Assembly: GCA_902515405.1 (NCBI GenBank)
Contig: CABXUS010000009.1
Location: 1-48,655 of the forward strand
From: an uncultured Bacteroidota bacterium
Lineage (GTDB): Bacteria; Bacteroidota; Bacteroidia; Flavobacteriales; Flavobacteriaceae
DNA: 48,655 nucleotides
Direction: 5' to 3'
A model generated the notes under the pieces. It was not told the DNA's origin, ran no database searches, and saw nothing but the letters and a program-made list of their open reading frames with translations. How positions within the stretch are numbered: position 1 is the stretch's first letter; each line of letters starts with the position of its first letter. The position numbers and the translations under genes were made by a program. Shown here piece by piece: positions 33,783 through 40,793 of the stretch.

Positions 33783-34292
33783 ATGAAAAAGTTATTTTAC
33801 ACACTATTAGGGTTGTTCCTAATAACTTCATGTGAGACTTCAGCTCCATGTGAAAAAGAAACTAATGGTTTTGGTCCATATGATGGTCAAACTGTATATC
33901 TAGGATCTCAGGAAACAGTTGATGTTTTTACAGCAATTGATGCTGCCTGGGCTGCAAGAGATTATGAAACTTTAAAATCTTTCATTGTTGATGGTGGTAA
34001 TTTTTCGTTTGCTGACGGAACTGTCGTAACTACAGGAGATGATTTTATTGCTTACATTGATGCAGAATATCAAGAAGCTATTGAAAATAGTGAAGACTGG
34101 GGTTGGACAACAGATTATGCGTTTGCTGCATACCCTGCTGGATCTGATGACCCGGAAGCTGGAAATCAAGTTGGTGAATGGGTTAATGCTCAATTCACTT
34201 CACCTGACGGTAGATATGTTGAATGGTATCACATTGCTGATGGTAAACTTTACAATTGGAATCAAGCTAAGGCTGAAATTATAAAAGAATAA
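33783..34292 (+). CDS. NTF2-like lipoprotein, first of a tandem pair
   Basis: A 169-residue lipoprotein (LITSC, Cys17). The mature domain is NTF2-like: ETVDVFTAIDAAWAARDYETLKSFI, then FADGTVVTTGDDFIAYIDAEY, GEWVNAQFTSPDGRYVEWYHIADGKL and a final strand. It is clearly paralogous to the next gene, sharing AIDxAWxxRDYETLKSxxxD, GEWVxAxFT and EWYxIxDGKL. Small-ligand binding is plausible but unproven. A palindrome and a near -7 box lie upstream. The second copy begins 2 bases after the stop. Confidence 0.82.
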   Translation: MKKLFYTLLGLFLITSCETSAPCEKETNGFGPYDGQTVYLGSQETVDVFTAIDAAWAARDYETLKSFIVDGGNFSFADGTVVTTGDDFIAYIDAEYQEAIENSEDWGWTTDYAFAAYPAGSDDPEAGNQVGEWVNAQFTSPDGRYVEWYHIADGKLYNWNQAKAEIIKE

Positions 34293-34294
34293 AT

Positions 34295-34813
34295 ATGAAA
34301 AATTTTATATACATACTATCAGGATTATTTCTTCTAGCATCATGTATGTCAAATGTAGATGATAATTCAACTGAAAAATCAAATGGTTTTGTAATGGACA
34401 CTGGTCAGACAATCATGCTAGGAAGCGATGCTTCAGTCGAAGTTGTAAAACAAATTGATAATGCTTGGAAAAGCAGAGATTATGAAACATTAAAATCATT
34501 AGTCGCTGATGATGCTAAACTATATCACGATGATGGTAGGGTTTCTACTGGAGGCGGAGAGTTTGTTGCAGCAATTGAAAGTGATTATACTGAGATGGTT
34601 GCTGAAGGAAAAGAGTGGGATTGGGTCATGAACTTTGCATTTTCTGTAAAGGTTTCAGAATCTGAAAATGAGGATTTGGGGAATGATGATGGTGAATGGG
34701 TTAGTGCTCGATTTACAACTGCTTCTGATGAGGTTTTTGAGGAGTGGTACTATATTGTGGATGGTAAACTTTCTTGGTGGGGATCTGCTAAAAGAGGATT
34801 ATACACAGAGTAA
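34295..34813 (+). CDS. NTF2-like lipoprotein, second of a tandem pair
   Basis: A 172-residue lipoprotein (LLASC, Cys17) paralogous to the gene before it. QIDNAWKSRDYETLKSLVADDAKLYHDDGR, GGEFVAAIESDY, DGEWVSARFTTASDE and EEWYYIVDGKLSWWGSAK are the shared blocks. The helical insert is longer and more acidic than in the first copy, and the two have diverged considerably, so the duplication is old. It is followed by a strong bidirectional terminator shared with the fibre operon. Confidence 0.82.
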   Translation: MKNFIYILSGLFLLASCMSNVDDNSTEKSNGFVMDTGQTIMLGSDASVEVVKQIDNAWKSRDYETLKSLVADDAKLYHDDGRVSTGGGEFVAAIESDYTEMVAEGKEWDWVMNFAFSVKVSESENEDLGNDDGEWVSARFTTASDEVFEEWYYIVDGKLSWWGSAKRGLYTE

Positions 34814-34833
34814 AATAACTCAGATTTAATTTT

Positions 34834-34863
34834 AAAAAAGCTCATAGAAATATGGGCTTTTTT
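34834..34863. terminator. Strong bidirectional terminator
   Basis: AAAAAAGCTCATA (34834-34846), loop GAAA, TATGGGCTTTTTT (34851-34863), a 13-bp stem with one mismatch or wobble, flanked by A and T tracts. It ends the plus-strand lipoprotein pair and the minus-strand fibre operon, whose stop codon begins 2 bases beyond it. Confidence 0.9.
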
Positions 34864-34864
34864 A

Positions 34865-37800
34865 TTATTTACTCTGTTTTAATAATTCAAGTTCTTTTTT
34901 AAGTTTTTCTATTTCAATATTCAATTCTTGAATTGATTTAATTAAAGGCATTATAATTTGTTTATAATCCATTCCTAAAAACCCTTCATTATCTTCTGAA
35001 ATTATAGTGCTTTCTGGGTCAGATTCTTTCAATATTTTATCAACTTCCTGAGCTATCAAACCGTACTCATATCTAGTCTCATTATTTTCTTCCTCTCCTT
35101 TATACTGACTTTTACTAATTTTTAAATATGACACAGGATTTAATTTATTAATAAACTGAAGGCCCAGGTTAACTGGCTTTATAAAATCCTTAAGTCTCAT
35201 ATCTGATGAGTTTATTGTTGCATTAGCATATAAAACAGCAGCACCATCTTGCGCGGCATATACTCTTGTCACGTCAGCATTACCAATTACAGCATAGTTG
35301 TTACCCTGTCCTGTAGCTCCCTTACCGATAACTATCTGGTTAGAAGCGTTGTTCGCACTAGGATCTGCCTGATAACCTATAATAGTATTATTTGACCCAG
35401 TTGTAATAACATCACCTGCTTCATATCCTAAAGCTGTGTTATAATTACCTGTGTTGTTTGAATGTAAAGCATAATAACCTAAAGCTGTGTTTTGGTCTCC
35501 AGTAGTATTTGAATATAAACTTCTTGATCCCGAAGCTGTGTTATAATCACCTGTAGTGTTAAGTCTTAAAGCATAATATCCTGTAGCTGTATTTTCGGTT
35601 CCTGTAATGTTTTCTTGTAAAGCTCTAGTACCCATAGCAGTGTTAAGATTGCCTGTAGTGTTTTTAATTAAAGTTCTTGATCCCAATGCTGTATTTCCAC
35701 TACCTGTAGTGTTATAATATAAAGCATAATAACCTAAAGCTGTATTAGTTCCACCTGAAATGTTTGAATATAAAGTTCTTGATCCCAATGCTGTGTTCTC
35801 GATTCCTATAGTATTTGCATTTAAAGCCAAGGATCCTAAAGCTGTATTTTCATTACCGGAAGTGTTTGACGTTAATGCATCATATCCTATAGCTGTGTTT
35901 CTGTCACCTGTTGTTACAGCATCCATAGCATTAATCCCAACTGCTGTATTTTTAGTTGCAGCATTTAATGTTCCCGTTGTTTGATGACCAAGAATCATGG
36001 AATCTGCAAAGTCAGTGCCTCCACTTTTTGCATCAGTCAAATCATCAATGGCTCCGGCTACTCCGCTGTTGTTGACCCAAGCAAGCACACCACTTCCATC
36101 GGTTTTCAGTACCTGATTCGCAGAACCATCAGCCGCGGGAAGCGTCCAAACTTGATCTCCACCCAATGCTGCAGCAGATTGGAAACCTACATGGTGTGTT
36201 CCATTTGCGGTGTCTTCATAAAACTTTATACCATCGGCATGAACCATAGCGCCCATATCCTCAGCCATATAAACATCTGTAATAGCATCATCTCCAAATA
36301 CCGCCTTATTATTTCCTTTTCCGTCTGCATCATGGCCAATAACGATTTGGTTGGTTCCAGTTTGACTATGTGGGTTAGCACGATATCCTATCATAATATT
36401 ATTATCACCACTTGTGATCATATCCCCAGCCTGGAATCCAAGTGCGGTATTGAAATCAGCATCATTATCCAATTCTTCCAATGCCTCTTTACCTACAGCA
36501 GTATTCCAGCTACCTGAAACATTCGAAATTAGCGCATCAGCGCCAAGTGCAGTATTATTTATCCCAGATTGGTTACCCATTAATACCCGATATCCTATAG
36601 CTGTATTGTTTGATGATGTTGTATTTGAAAATAATGCATCTTTACCAAGTGCAGTATTGGCAGTTCCTGATGTATTTGCCGTTAATGCTCTATGACCTAT
36701 AGCTACGTTATCATCACCCAGTGTTATTGCATCCATAGCATTAATCCCAACTGCTGTATTATTCGATGCACTGTTTAATGTTCCCGTTGTTTGATGACCG
36801 AGAATCATGGAATTTGAAAAGTTAGTTCCACCACTTTTTCCGTCAGTCAAATCATCAATGGCTCCTGCTACTCCGCTGTTGTTCACCCAAGCAAGAACTC
36901 CACTACCATCTGTTTTCAGTACCTGATTCGCAGAACCATCAGCCGAGGGAAGCGTCCAAACCTGATCTCCACCCAATGTTGCAGCAGATTGGAAACCTAC
37001 ATGGTTTGTTCCATTTGCCGTGTCTTCATAAAACTTTACACCATCGACATGAACCATAGCGCCCATATCCTCAGCCATGTAAATATCTGTAACATTATCA
37101 CTTCCTATAACTGCCGTATCATTACCCAGTCCAGTAGCCCCATATCCAATGACTATTTGGCGATTTCCATTATGAGCACTAGGATCTGTACCCGCACCAA
37201 TCAAAGTGTTTTGAAAACCTGTACTGATTACATTACCAGCTTGATAACCAATTGCGGTGTTTTGTCCTGCAGTGGCGAGCTTTAGAGCCTCAAAACCAAT
37301 TGCTGTATTAAAATCACCTGTTTCATTATCATTAGAAGCATAGGTTCCAATAGCGGTATTGTAATTTCCTGATATATTCATGTGCATTGCGCGCGCTCCA
37401 ATTGCTGTGTTATTTTGACCTGTAGTGAGCTGAATAAAAGCGCCGTATCCCAATGCTGTATTCATGTCTCCCTCAGTTATTGCTCTCATAGCATAAATCC
37501 CAACTGCTGTATTTCCTGTTGCAATATTTAATGTTCCTGTTGTTTCATGACCAAGGAGCATGGAGCCTGTAAAGTTGGTGCCACCACTTTTTCCATCAGT
37601 CAAATCATCAATGGCTCCCGCTACTCCGCTGTTTGCAGTCCAAGCAAGAGTGCCGCTTCCATCGGTTTTTAAAACCTGACCATTTGTACCATCTGCAGTA
37701 GGAAGGGTCCAAACTTGATCTCCACCCAATGTTGCAGCAGAGTTAAAGCCTACATAGTTTGTTCCATTTGCAGTGTCTTCATAAAACTTTACACCATCGG

Positions 37801-39859
37801 CATGAACCGTAGCGCCCATATCCTGAGCCATGTAAACGTCCGTAACATCACTGTTTCCTAAAACCACCATATTATCTGATTTACCTCTAGCACCTTTGCC
37901 AATAATGATTTGGTTTTCTCCACTCTCTCTTGGAGAAGTACGTGTCTCAGAACCAATTAATATATTATAGTCACCTGTTGTCATATATTCTCCTGCATGA
38001 TATCCGATGCCAATATTATTATTTGATGACGCTCCACCATTCCCCAAAGTATAAAATGCTTTTCTTCCAACTGCAATATTATGATGAGTGCCTTTACCGG
38101 CATACAGTGCCATAGTACCAAGTGCTGTATTATAATACCCATCATCGTTTGCCTCCATTGCCTCTGACCCTATCGCTGTATTTCCATAGCCTTCCGTGTC
38201 ATTAGCTAGTGCTTGATAACCAACTGCAGTGTTCGCACTGTACCTGGTATGATCTCTTAGCGCATCCGTCCCAACAGCTGTATTGGCATCCCAACTAGTA
38301 AGGGACGTCAAAGCATTGTAACCAACAGCTGTATTGCTATCACCCGAAGTAAGGGCATCCATAGCAGTAATACCAACTGCTGTATTGTATTGTGCATCGC
38401 TGCTTAATGTTCCTGTTGTTTCATGACCAAGGAGCATGGAGCCTGTAAAGTTGGTGCCACCACTTTTTCCATCCGTTAAATCATCAATTGAACTTGATGA
38501 TCCTGATCCAATATATGTTTTTAATCTACTAACTGCTGTTTTTCTGTTTGTTCCTCCTCCGCCATCATCAATTATAATTAAATCTAAATCCGTTATCGCA
38601 GCACCAATATCTGTTGCTCCATCAATTTCTAATGACGATAATGCAACCTTACCTACTGTGGAGATTTGGTTTAATTTTGAATCAGCTATTGAGCCTGCTA
38701 ATTCATCGTTAGCAATACCGCCATCTTTTATTGTCACTGCTCCACTTGAAACACTAAAATTATCTGAACTAAATGAAGATATTCCTTTATTAGACGTTGT
38801 AGCATCTTCCCCAGATATTACTCCATTATTTATATCAATACCCTCACCAGCTGAGAATTTAGCTCTTACATCTGAAGTGCTTAATTGAGTGTTTGTATCC
38901 GTAGAAGATATTACACCATTTGTAATATCAATATTAGTCCCTGCTGTATACTCAGTATTTGTATCCGTAGAAGATATTACACCATTTGTAATATCAATAT
39001 TAGTCCCTGCTGTATACTCAGTATTTGTATCGGTTGAAGATATTGTTACAGCTCCAGCATTTTCTGTTATTGTAACATTTGATCCCGCTGTAAAAGCAAG
39101 CGTCTCACTATCAGCCAAAGTATTACCACCAGCTGTAACTGAGCGTACTGTATCAGTATCTGTTACAGTACTAGATATAGTATTATTCCCATCAATCGAT
39201 ATCCCTGTACCTGCTGTAAGTTTATCTGTTAAATCATTATATGATCCTGAGCTTGCAGCAGTTGATAACCCCAAAACATTTCTTGATGAGGCAGCGTCTG
39301 ATGCTGTAATCAGGCCAACCATAGGGGCAGTTGTGGAACCAGTTCCTCCATTTTCAACAGGAAGGATAGCTTCAACATCATCAGTTAAATCAACCTTATT
39401 GACTGAGATTTCATTATTACTAATTGTAAGATAATCTTGACCGGTTATTGTTAAAGTTGAGCCGGATGAATTGGAATATAAAGCGTAAGGAACACTTAAT
39501 AATTGTGTAGTATCTTCAGCTATGTAATTAAATCCACCAGCAGGGTCAACTTCAACTTTTAGGTAATATGGTCCAGCTGACCAATCTATTGTTTCCATTT
39601 CATCAGCTGAAAGTCCTTTGCCAATAATCATCGTAGCTAATCCATTGGTATTTGTAATCACGCTGTGCTCCTCTGAATATACATTAGATCCGTTTTGAGA
39701 ACTTTTAAGTATTGAAATTCTAAAGCTAATTTCTTTATTAGATATTAATTGGCCAGACGCGTCTCTTATAACGGATTGATATGTAAAGCTATTAGGTGAC
39801 TGCGAGTAGATATCGTTAACAAATAGGGCTAAAAAGAAGCAAAGTGTTATTTTTTTCAT
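34865..39859 (-). CDS. Giant modular surface fibre with YadA-like repeats and C-terminal S74 chaperone
   Basis: A 1664-residue exported protein (signal peptide MKKITLCFFLALFVNDIYSQ). Residues about 21-130 form an N-terminal domain common in Bacteroidota fibre proteins (FTYQSVIRDASGQLISNKE). Residues 130-450 are Thr/Asp/Gly-rich beta repeats. From about 458 come four modules joined by IDDLTDGKSGGTNF linkers, each filled with NTAxGxxAL repeats like YadA heads. The last module carries a tract of 17-residue repeats (about 1320-1480). DMRLKDFIKPVNLGLQFI at about 1552 opens a Peptidase_S74 intramolecular chaperone with the SDxRLK Ser/Lys pair, and the protein ends in a coiled coil (IEKLKKELELLKQSK). 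I infer a trimeric adhesin-like fibre. The start overlaps the T9SS gene as ATGA. Confidence 0.88.
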   Translation of the reverse strand: MKKITLCFFLALFVNDIYSQSPNSFTYQSVIRDASGQLISNKEISFRISILKSSQNGSNVYSEEHSVITNTNGLATMIIGKGLSADEMETIDWSAGPYYLKVEVDPAGGFNYIAEDTTQLLSVPYALYSNSSGSTLTITGQDYLTISNNEISVNKVDLTDDVEAILPVENGGTGSTTAPMVGLITASDAASSRNVLGLSTAASSGSYNDLTDKLTAGTGISIDGNNTISSTVTDTDTVRSVTAGGNTLADSETLAFTAGSNVTITENAGAVTISSTDTNTEYTAGTNIDITNGVISSTDTNTEYTAGTNIDITNGVISSTDTNTQLSTSDVRAKFSAGEGIDINNGVISGEDATTSNKGISSFSSDNFSVSSGAVTIKDGGIANDELAGSIADSKLNQISTVGKVALSSLEIDGATDIGAAITDLDLIIIDDGGGGTNRKTAVSRLKTYIGSGSSSSIDDLTDGKSGGTNFTGSMLLGHETTGTLSSDAQYNTAVGITAMDALTSGDSNTAVGYNALTSLTSWDANTAVGTDALRDHTRYSANTAVGYQALANDTEGYGNTAIGSEAMEANDDGYYNTALGTMALYAGKGTHHNIAVGRKAFYTLGNGGASSNNNIGIGYHAGEYMTTGDYNILIGSETRTSPRESGENQIIIGKGARGKSDNMVVLGNSDVTDVYMAQDMGATVHADGVKFYEDTANGTNYVGFNSAATLGGDQVWTLPTADGTNGQVLKTDGSGTLAWTANSGVAGAIDDLTDGKSGGTNFTGSMLLGHETTGTLNIATGNTAVGIYAMRAITEGDMNTALGYGAFIQLTTGQNNTAIGARAMHMNISGNYNTAIGTYASNDNETGDFNTAIGFEALKLATAGQNTAIGYQAGNVISTGFQNTLIGAGTDPSAHNGNRQIVIGYGATGLGNDTAVIGSDNVTDIYMAEDMGAMVHVDGVKFYEDTANGTNHVGFQSAATLGGDQVWTLPSADGSANQVLKTDGSGVLAWVNNSGVAGAIDDLTDGKSGGTNFSNSMILGHQTTGTLNSASNNTAVGINAMDAITLGDDNVAIGHRALTANTSGTANTALGKDALFSNTTSSNNTAIGYRVLMGNQSGINNTALGADALISNVSGSWNTAVGKEALEELDNDADFNTALGFQAGDMITSGDNNIMIGYRANPHSQTGTNQIVIGHDADGKGNNKAVFGDDAITDVYMAEDMGAMVHADGIKFYEDTANGTHHVGFQSAAALGGDQVWTLPAADGSANQVLKTDGSGVLAWVNNSGVAGAIDDLTDAKSGGTDFADSMILGHQTTGTLNAATKNTAVGINAMDAVTTGDRNTAIGYDALTSNTSGNENTALGSLALNANTIGIENTALGSRTLYSNISGGTNTALGYYALYYNTTGSGNTALGSRTLIKNTTGNLNTAMGTRALQENITGTENTATGYYALRLNTTGDYNTASGSRSLYSNTTGDQNTALGYYALHSNNTGNYNTALGYEAGDVITTGSNNTIIGYQADPSANNASNQIVIGKGATGQGNNYAVIGNADVTRVYAAQDGAAVLYANATINSSDMRLKDFIKPVNLGLQFINKLNPVSYLKISKSQYKGEEENNETRYEYGLIAQEVDKILKESDPESTIISEDNEGFLGMDYKQIIMPLIKSIQELNIEIEKLKKELELLKQSK
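35420..35900. repeat. Tract of 51-bp (17-codon) tandem repeats in the fibre gene
   Basis: Nine or so diverged copies encode G-x-x-NTALG-x-x-x-L-x-x-N-x-T. Units with YYAL and units with SRTL tend to alternate, implying an older 34-residue duplication. Boundaries are approximate. Confidence 0.8.
35965..36283. repeat. 319-bp direct repeat, copy A (fibre module linker)
   Basis: Collinear with copy B at an offset of exactly 810 bases and very similar by eye. It encodes about 106 residues, including TDVYMAEDMGAMVHADG, GGDQVWTLP, QVLKTDGSGVLAW and AGAIDDLTD. Confidence 0.85.
36775..37093. repeat. 319-bp direct repeat, copy B
   Basis: No length differences from copy A or copy C across the unit. 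Differences from copy A are scattered single bases, such as CCGCGGG against CCGAGGG. Confidence 0.85.
37528..37846. repeat. 319-bp direct repeat, copy C
   Basis: Offset 753 bases from copy B and more diverged than A from B. A partial fourth copy (38404 to about 38487) covers only the NFTGSMLLGHETTGTL and DDLTDGKSGG part. Confidence 0.82.
38895..39026. repeat. Perfect 66-bp tandem duplication
   Basis: Bases 38895-38960 and 38961-39026 are identical, starting GTATCCGTAGAAG. They encode two 22-residue units (SSTDTNTEYTAGTNIDITNG). A partial third unit follows at 39027. Exact identity implies recent slippage or unequal exchange. Confidence 0.92.
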
Positions 39860-40338
39860 ACTTTATTTACGGCTAATTTAAAACTACGGAATAATCCGCA
39901 AAAATTATAAAAACTAAGTATGTAAATACCCTCGGAGTATGAACTAAAATCAATAGAAATATCGTTTTCAGAAAATGAATGATCATATATTTTTCTACCT
40001 GCTGCATCATAAACTATTAAAGTTAATTTATGTTCTATATTTTCCATAGAAATATTCACAATGGAAGAAGTGGGATTTGGAAAAACTGAGATTTTTATAC
40101 TATTGTAATCTCTGCAATCGAATACATCAATAATATAAGAGTATTGTACGCCTTGGATAAAATCTAATTCAAGTATTGATGAATCAACTTTTTCAATTGT
40201 GCTTACCTTAAGCTGTCCTATCGTATAACTTAGAGAAACTTGATTAGACTCGATATCCCCACCACTGGTTGTTACGGTTTGCTGAGATGATAAATAAGAG
40301 CTTATTAAAAAAAATGTAGCTATTAATTTTAATTTCAT
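39856..40338 (-). CDS. Small T9SS-secreted protein with type A C-terminal sorting domain
   Basis: A 160-residue exported protein (signal peptide SYLSSQ). A short N-terminal region of about 60 residues (TVTTSGGDIESNQVSLSYTIGQL) is followed by a C-terminal sorting domain starting ISVFPNPTSSIVNIS, then LIVYDAAGRKIYDHSF and DFSSYSEGIYILSF, ending KLAVNKV. Such domains direct export by the type IX system found in gliding Flavobacteriia. The cargo part is too short to be an enzyme. It overlaps the genes on both sides by 4 bases, implying joint production with the fibre. Confidence 0.9.
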   Translation of the reverse strand: MKLKLIATFFLISSYLSSQQTVTTSGGDIESNQVSLSYTIGQLKVSTIEKVDSSILELDFIQGVQYSYIIDVFDCRDYNSIKISVFPNPTSSIVNISMENIEHKLTLIVYDAAGRKIYDHSFSENDISIDFSSYSEGIYILSFYNFCGLFRSFKLAVNKV

Positions 40339-40793
40339 TTGACAAAAGGTAAAGAAGAATGGTGCAAGATAATTTTTAAATCTCCCTTATCATTTTTCTT
40401 GTATACAAAACTATACTCAACTTTGGTTTTATCACCGTTATTATCTGTAAAAAAATAATTCCCCATAGCAATTGCTAAGTCATTTATAATATTGATGGAA
40501 TTATTTTCAAAGTCTACTTTTACCCAGGGATTTAAGGCAAATCCTTTATCTTCAATAAAGTCAGAATCTGAACCTATAAAATATGAAAGAGCTGATTTTA
40601 CATCTCCTCTAAATTGAGCATCTGAGGCTTTTGTTGGTTTAAACTGGACTATGCCATTTTCATAATCATACATTTTACTAATAAAATCTAGAGTAAACAT
40701 TCTGCACTCCTTAATGGTGTCTTTTAACTCCCCTATTTTAACAATTCCATTTCCCCATTTTTCTTGGGCCTTTTCAATTTCTTTAATTTTCAT
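40335..40793 (-). CDS. NTF2-like cytoplasmic protein (CaMKII-association-domain-like)
   Basis: A 152-residue protein without a signal peptide. KWGNGIVKIG near the start, VQFKPTKASDAQFRG, ALSYFIGSDSDFIEDKGFALNPW, AIAMGNYFFTD and KIILHHSSLPF are the blocks of an NTF2-like family widespread in bacteria, whose members are sometimes mislabelled phosphoribosyl-AMP cyclohydrolase. It binds a small molecule or oligomerises; no reaction is established. It is the first gene of the fibre operon and overlaps the T9SS gene by 4 bases. Confidence 0.82.
   Translation of the reverse strand: MKIKEIEKAQEKWGNGIVKIGELKDTIKECRMFTLDFISKMYDYENGIVQFKPTKASDAQFRGDVKSALSYFIGSDSDFIEDKGFALNPWVKVDFENNSINIINDLAIAMGNYFFTDNNGDKTKVEYSFVYKKNDKGDLKIILHHSSLPFVK

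Follow-up and report, generated by a model that had tools for sequence, protein, structure and literature searches.

Our results suggest that two of three overlapping genes in the stretch of DNA analysed here (hereafter the window; 48,655 nucleotides from an uncultured marine member of the Flavobacteriaceae) constitute a two-gene surface-adhesin cassette, in which a small protein with a type IX secretion system (T9SS) sorting domain would anchor and/or escort a fibre of the mosaic adhesive trimer (MAT) type with a swappable tip; we hold this reading with moderate confidence. The three ORFs lie on the minus strand and overlap by 4 bases at both junctions, as the first-pass annotation described; each starts with ATG, and both overlaps read ATGA. 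In the order of transcription they encode an iota-class (COG4337-type) carbonic anhydrase (CA) homologue of 152 aa (40335..40793; profiles, PDB search and residue alignment), which is probably outside the fibre system; a small T9SS type A cargo of 160 aa (39856..40338; profiles, alignment and fold match); and a MAT-like chimeric fibre of 1664 aa (34865..39859; ORF and profile matches). A terminator-like hairpin, scored as a plus-strand site, occupies positions 34833–34864, just beyond the end of the fibre gene, and promoter-like sites are no commoner than chance would give (24 found, 25.9 expected). Facing the fibre gene, positions 33783–34813 hold a tandem of two genes whose DUF4440/SnoaL matches are sub-threshold, and one or two homologues of them occupy the same site in the CA loci viewed in the genus.

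The second gene encodes a T9SS cargo, as first annotated: its sorting domain exceeds the cut-offs of both Pfam Por_Secre_tail (PF18962; 45.3 bits, cut-off 27) and TIGR04183 (32.5 bits, cut-off 23), and the fold it resembles most closely is that of 8glk_D, a T9SS substrate domain from NucA (TM 0.86 on target). In both respects it resembles known type A cargo. The protein consists of a signal peptide (residues ∼1–18, by eye), Gln19, a body (∼19–70) and the C-terminal sorting domain (∼80–160). The accompanying remark that the body is almost absent needs a slight correction, because a conserved stretch of ∼50 residues separates the signal peptide from the sorting domain; Gln19 and the glycines at 26, 41 and 63 are common to all 56 aligned small proteins, the window's included. 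When the protein is folded alone, this body is modelled with low confidence (block-mean pLDDT 42–62 over residues 11–70). Unlike ordinary type A cargo, the small protein has a body of only ∼50 residues and is genetically tied to a fibre that lacks a sorting domain. In Flavobacterium johnsoniae, type A domains lead to either static anchoring at the surface or release, according to the available part of a recent account (PMC12618676).

The fibre starts, after a putative signal peptide, with a MAT-like domain predicted to be all-beta (residues ∼19–145; 39425..39805, minus strand; profile and structure prediction). This domain matches the MAT profile NF053851 with E 4e-14 and 52.7 bits, below the NCBI cut-off of 60, and the same profile matches 15 of 15 aligned N-domains, that of the window among them. 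All matches from a fold search with the N-domain were weak and above E 0.001, and a PDB sequence search with the whole fibre gave no match at E 1. The repetitive shaft (residues ∼459–1551; 35207..38485, minus strand; repeat and motif scan) holds four long repeats, beginning at residues 459, 751, 1002 and 1272, and 29 NTAxG motifs. A separate tandem repeat within the fibre gene (38888..39044; 66 bp, 2.4 copies, 96% match) has a length that is a multiple of three, so that a change in copy number would keep the fibre in frame. The fibre ends in an S74 intramolecular chaperone (residues 1552–1664; 34865..35206, minus strand; Pfam and motif), which we expect to be removed. Its Pfam domain (PF13884) spans residues 1552–1612 and scores 42.5 bits against a cut-off of 22, its SDxxxK motif is intact as SDMRLK at residue 1552, with 113 residues to the fibre end, and the translated C terminus includes a stretch with a heptad-like pattern. 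The 1664-residue repeat fibre with a terminal S74 domain thus stands as originally called. In the available part of the MAT paper, S74 of one Bdellovibrio MAT protein cuts itself off at the serine (PMC10769870); autocleavage is plausible in the window fibre too, because the motif is intact. A YadA-type trimeric autotransporter was considered and rejected, with no YadA family among the fibre's Pfam matches up to E 1.

As far as the part of PMC10769870 available goes, the window fibre resembles Bdellovibrio MATs in (i) a conserved, beta-rich N-domain of ∼130 aa behind a signal peptide, (ii) a long shape, (iii) exchangeable C-terminal tips and (iv) an S74 domain with SDxxxK in a subset of members. 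It differs from them in coming from another phylum, in a profile score under the NCBI cut-off, in its NTAxG-repeat shaft and in the T9SS-tagged small protein encoded upstream. Another genome of the same order, a single contig of 1.9 Mb (G082:C1), has 27 matches to the S74 domain, of which 24 fall within open frames of >700 aa.

The first gene had been called NTF2-like, a label that can be made more precise: it is a homologue of iota-carbonic anhydrases, matching the profile NF047901 ('metal-independent carbonic anhydrase') with E 1.7e-36 and 125.6 bits, below the equivalog cut-off of 350, as well as the solved structures PDB 7c5v and 7c5x. In the available part of the study of Anabaena all2909, mutation of Thr106, Tyr124, His197 or Ser199 abolished activity (PMC8132391). 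These four catalytic residues correspond to T54, Y71, H144 and S146 of the window protein, and Phe138 to F85. No signal peptide is apparent by eye, and the gene product is probably an active cytoplasmic enzyme. It agrees with the COG4337 type (all2909 and 7c5v, as far as described in the part of PMC8132391 available) in sequence family, HHSS motif and all four catalytic residues, and differs in falling under the equivalog cut-off and in overlapping an adhesin pair here. In a different family, an iota-CA homologue adjoins a transporter of the sulfate-permease family (L055:5506-7521); from their inferred functions, these two might serve bicarbonate uptake.

We then examined how widely the small-protein and fibre genes occur together. 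Profiles of the MAT N-domain match 184 of the 295 genomes of the class Bacteroidia, so that MAT-type fibres are not a speciality of predators. Upstream neighbours were scored in two samples, one (A) of 89 loci with 90 MAT ORFs (29 best-per-genome matches and 60 hand-picked from among the matches listed) and one (B) of named genomes, with 79 loci (88 MAT ORFs) of at least 578 confirmed; they share three fibres, and each contains one repeat. In sample A, the gene directly upstream of the MAT ORF belongs to the small-protein family in 50 of 90 cases (54 under looser rules), encodes a larger T9SS protein in four and a tandem fibre in one, and is another same-strand gene in nine; 22 have nothing fitting and four lie too near a contig edge. 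The corresponding figures for sample B are 61 of 88, one, two, eight, 12 and four, and its pairs include representatives of Chryseobacterium, Flavobacterium, Flavivirga, Fluviicola, Kaistella and Winogradskyella. Without repeats, the small-protein family stands directly upstream of 107 of 173 distinct MAT fibre genes, in samples that consist of best-scoring matches to profiles built largely from paired genes near the window's relatives, both of which favour pairing. The other 66 follow a larger T9SS protein (five), a tandem fibre (three), another same-strand gene (17), nothing fitting (34) or a contig edge (seven).

Pairing is regular in the reverse direction as well: a MAT fibre comes next after 28 of the best 30 small-protein matches, the window's included (one has none and one is at an edge), a count that is not a separate test because 20 of the 30 also belong to samples A and B. 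Such an upstream neighbour was found for only one of 385 non-MAT genes, whereas 10 of the 21 MAT genes of these loci have one; most of the remaining 11 MAT genes belong to tandem arrays of fibres or follow another fibre. At the genome level, the small-protein profile, to which ordinary T9SS tails respond too, matches 174 genomes, and 120 of these have the MAT domain, versus four of 24 without a match (kinship ignored). The surmise of the first-pass annotation that fibre/T9SS pairs occur elsewhere in Bacteroidota, and that the two genes belong together, is therefore borne out across the class, and this recurrence makes an anchoring or guiding role for the small protein the best inference available.

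The pair also occupies a second locus in sister genomes. There it lies, without CA, directly upstream of porV, on the other side of which relative to the pair is a gldJ-like gene with an FGE-sulfatase domain, so that the pair sits between the two. In three relatives that have porU, this slot holds porU (positions compared by hand). The PorU sortase (Peptidase_C25, PF01364) was found in none of the 23 genus genomes, which are 55–87% complete, and 23 of 41 family genomes have Peptidase_C25. PorV is encoded in 21 of the 23 genus genomes: its slot contains the pair in six (one small gene being cut by a contig end), a fibre running to the contig end in four and nothing in ten. In the window's own genome, this slot is taken up by a 751-aa protein bearing a T9SS tail, together with a gene of 362 aa; the T9SS genes found in this genome include SprA and PorV, and it has three Por_Secre_tail matches, two of them over the cut-off. 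Among 17 genomes, the pair is present at the CA site only in four, at the porV locus only in eight, at both in none and at neither in five (Fisher p 0.08), which is suggestive only of mutual exclusion between the two loci. One genome (G051) carries porU in the usual slot as well as a pair at a different site, so that loss of porU is not required for the pair. A bolder proposal, which we advance tentatively and regard as possible rather than probable, is that MAT fibres of Bacteroidota, devoid of any sorting signal, owe their placement on the surface to this 160-residue partner, which acts in trans, and that in marine flavobacteria without PorU the sorting domain remains uncut on PorV, so that PorV, the small protein and the trimeric fibre form one appendage, the pair having replaced the sortase gene beside porV.

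The S74 domain of the window fibre has 77% identity to that of the second-locus fibre in G006, 75% to that in G015 and 46–49% to those in the other seven of nine, and the second-locus N-domains in view are 34–46% identical to the window's (the G006 N-domain lies beyond the contig end). In one genome (G018) the N-domain shows 88% identity to that of the window but the fibre has no S74, and one fibre of a different genus (G026) also ends without S74. At the level of sequence, exchange of fibre tips between loci and species is evident from these comparisons. S74 is present in 12 of 104 complete MAT ORFs, and a home-made profile detected a T9SS tail in none of the 104 (100 without repeats), lone fibres included.

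It is conceivable, if rather unlikely in our view, that the two genes are co-expressed and co-inherited while their products do not interact, the small T9SS protein being independent (at the surface or released) and the fibre using a route of its own. To our knowledge, Bdellovibrio MATs work without a T9SS. About a third of MAT genes have no small-protein neighbour (the 34 with nothing fitting upstream and the 17 behind another same-strand gene, of 173, would agree with independence), and these unpaired fibres likewise lack a sorting domain, which means that in those cases the partner works in trans or is dispensable. Independent action is harder to reconcile with the regularity of the pairing in both directions and in many families, and with the way the N-domain co-varies with the small protein more than the tip does. 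Over 66 pairs (fibres <300 aa, open ORFs and small proteins >0.9 alike left out), the Spearman correlation of distances is 0.66 between small protein and MAT N-domain versus 0.24 between N-domain and its own tip, a co-divergence that may be mere linkage because adjacent genes share their history. Every distance comparison, tips included, beat all 500 shuffles. Nearest-neighbour agreement, however, is low, at nine of 66 for small protein and N-domain, seven for N-domain and tip and two for small protein and tip, as independent proteins would have it.

The first-pass annotation had instead proposed a three-gene unit, that is, CA, small protein and fibre acting together in fibre building, and we consider this improbable. 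The CA gene is present in 18 of 23 genus genomes, and its downstream side was viewed in all 18. Four of them have the order CA-small-fibre, namely the window's genome (G000), G018, G002 (truncated at the end of its contig) and, apparently spread over two contigs, G022; the same triple recurs in another genus (G026), where CA and small gene overlap by 11 bases, and the CA/small junction is overlapping in all five triple-bearing genomes of the two genera, which speaks for a unit. Against it, the CA gene stands alone at the site in 13 of the 18, with the next gene ≤64 bases away, and in G003 all that lies downstream of CA of the pair is a disrupted remnant of the small gene. The pair is found without CA upstream of porV, and CA occurs elsewhere beside ligA (G112, with a same-size neighbour in G081 and G104) or adjoining a sulfate-permease-family transporter (G113); its catalytic residues are also conserved. 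Because CA is so often alone at the site and lies beside other genes elsewhere, it is best read as a neighbour of the fibre system, a bystander rather than a part of it. Thus, small protein and fibre remain neighbours in relatives, whereas the triple does not, although it is kept in five genomes. A tree of CA (20 of 24 sequences kept) has no well-supported branch, so that gain and loss of the pair cannot be told apart from it. The fibre of G018 (L045:9299-13019) is split into two ORFs at a point in its repetitive shaft and has no S74 at its end; the break could be a frameshift, phase variation or an assembly error.

A tail fibre of a phage or contractile injection particle (eCIS) in a prophage remnant is very improbable and was rejected: PHROG tail-spike and virion-protein profiles do match the fibre shaft and S74, but the nine other window proteins scanned gave one PHROG match, of unknown function, gene order on either side is preserved in relatives that lack the fibre, and the fibre carries a MAT-type N-domain (for S74 in eCIS, see PMC8213781).

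Returning to the two-gene cassette, we suggest the following sequence of events. The fibre would be exported by Sec and would trimerise with the help of its C-terminal S74 chaperone, which it may then shed by autocleavage, as the motif and the MAT and phage homologues indicate. Its MAT-type N-domain would sit at the cell and its C-terminal tip would bind the target. The small protein, presumably exported by the type IX system, would partner the fibre N-domain and anchor the fibre on the surface, escort it through the outer membrane, or both. More speculatively, in a genus where no PorU was found, the sorting domain might escape cleavage and remain docked to PorV, and the small protein would then serve as a permanent anchor. 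The CA would be an enzyme in its own right that is here transcribed together with the pair, as the gene overlap suggests.

MAT fibres, T9SS cargo and iota-CAs are known kinds of protein. A comparable linked pair is SprB/SprF (a type B cargo and its cognate PorP/SprF shuttle), in which, too, an adhesin is genetically linked to a dedicated placement partner; there the adhesin bears the sorting domain and the partner is a shuttle, whereas here it is the partner that bears the sorting domain (PMC12618676, as far as available). None of the literature matches listed describes a T9SS protein–MAT fibre pair in its title or the start of its abstract, which does not establish absence from print, and terms for co-secretion had no match in the available part of a T9SS review (PMC10202324).

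In brief, the small protein is the best candidate for holding such fibres on the cell, because the pair recurs so widely among related bacteria. Which element of the surface holds the MAT N-domain is a question that the available part of the MAT paper does not answer (PMC10769870). An adjacent, small, secretion-tagged and class-wide partner gene makes this question testable for Bacteroidota, in culturable Chryseobacterium, and, if the proposed role is true, the pair would exemplify a T9SS signal provided in trans.
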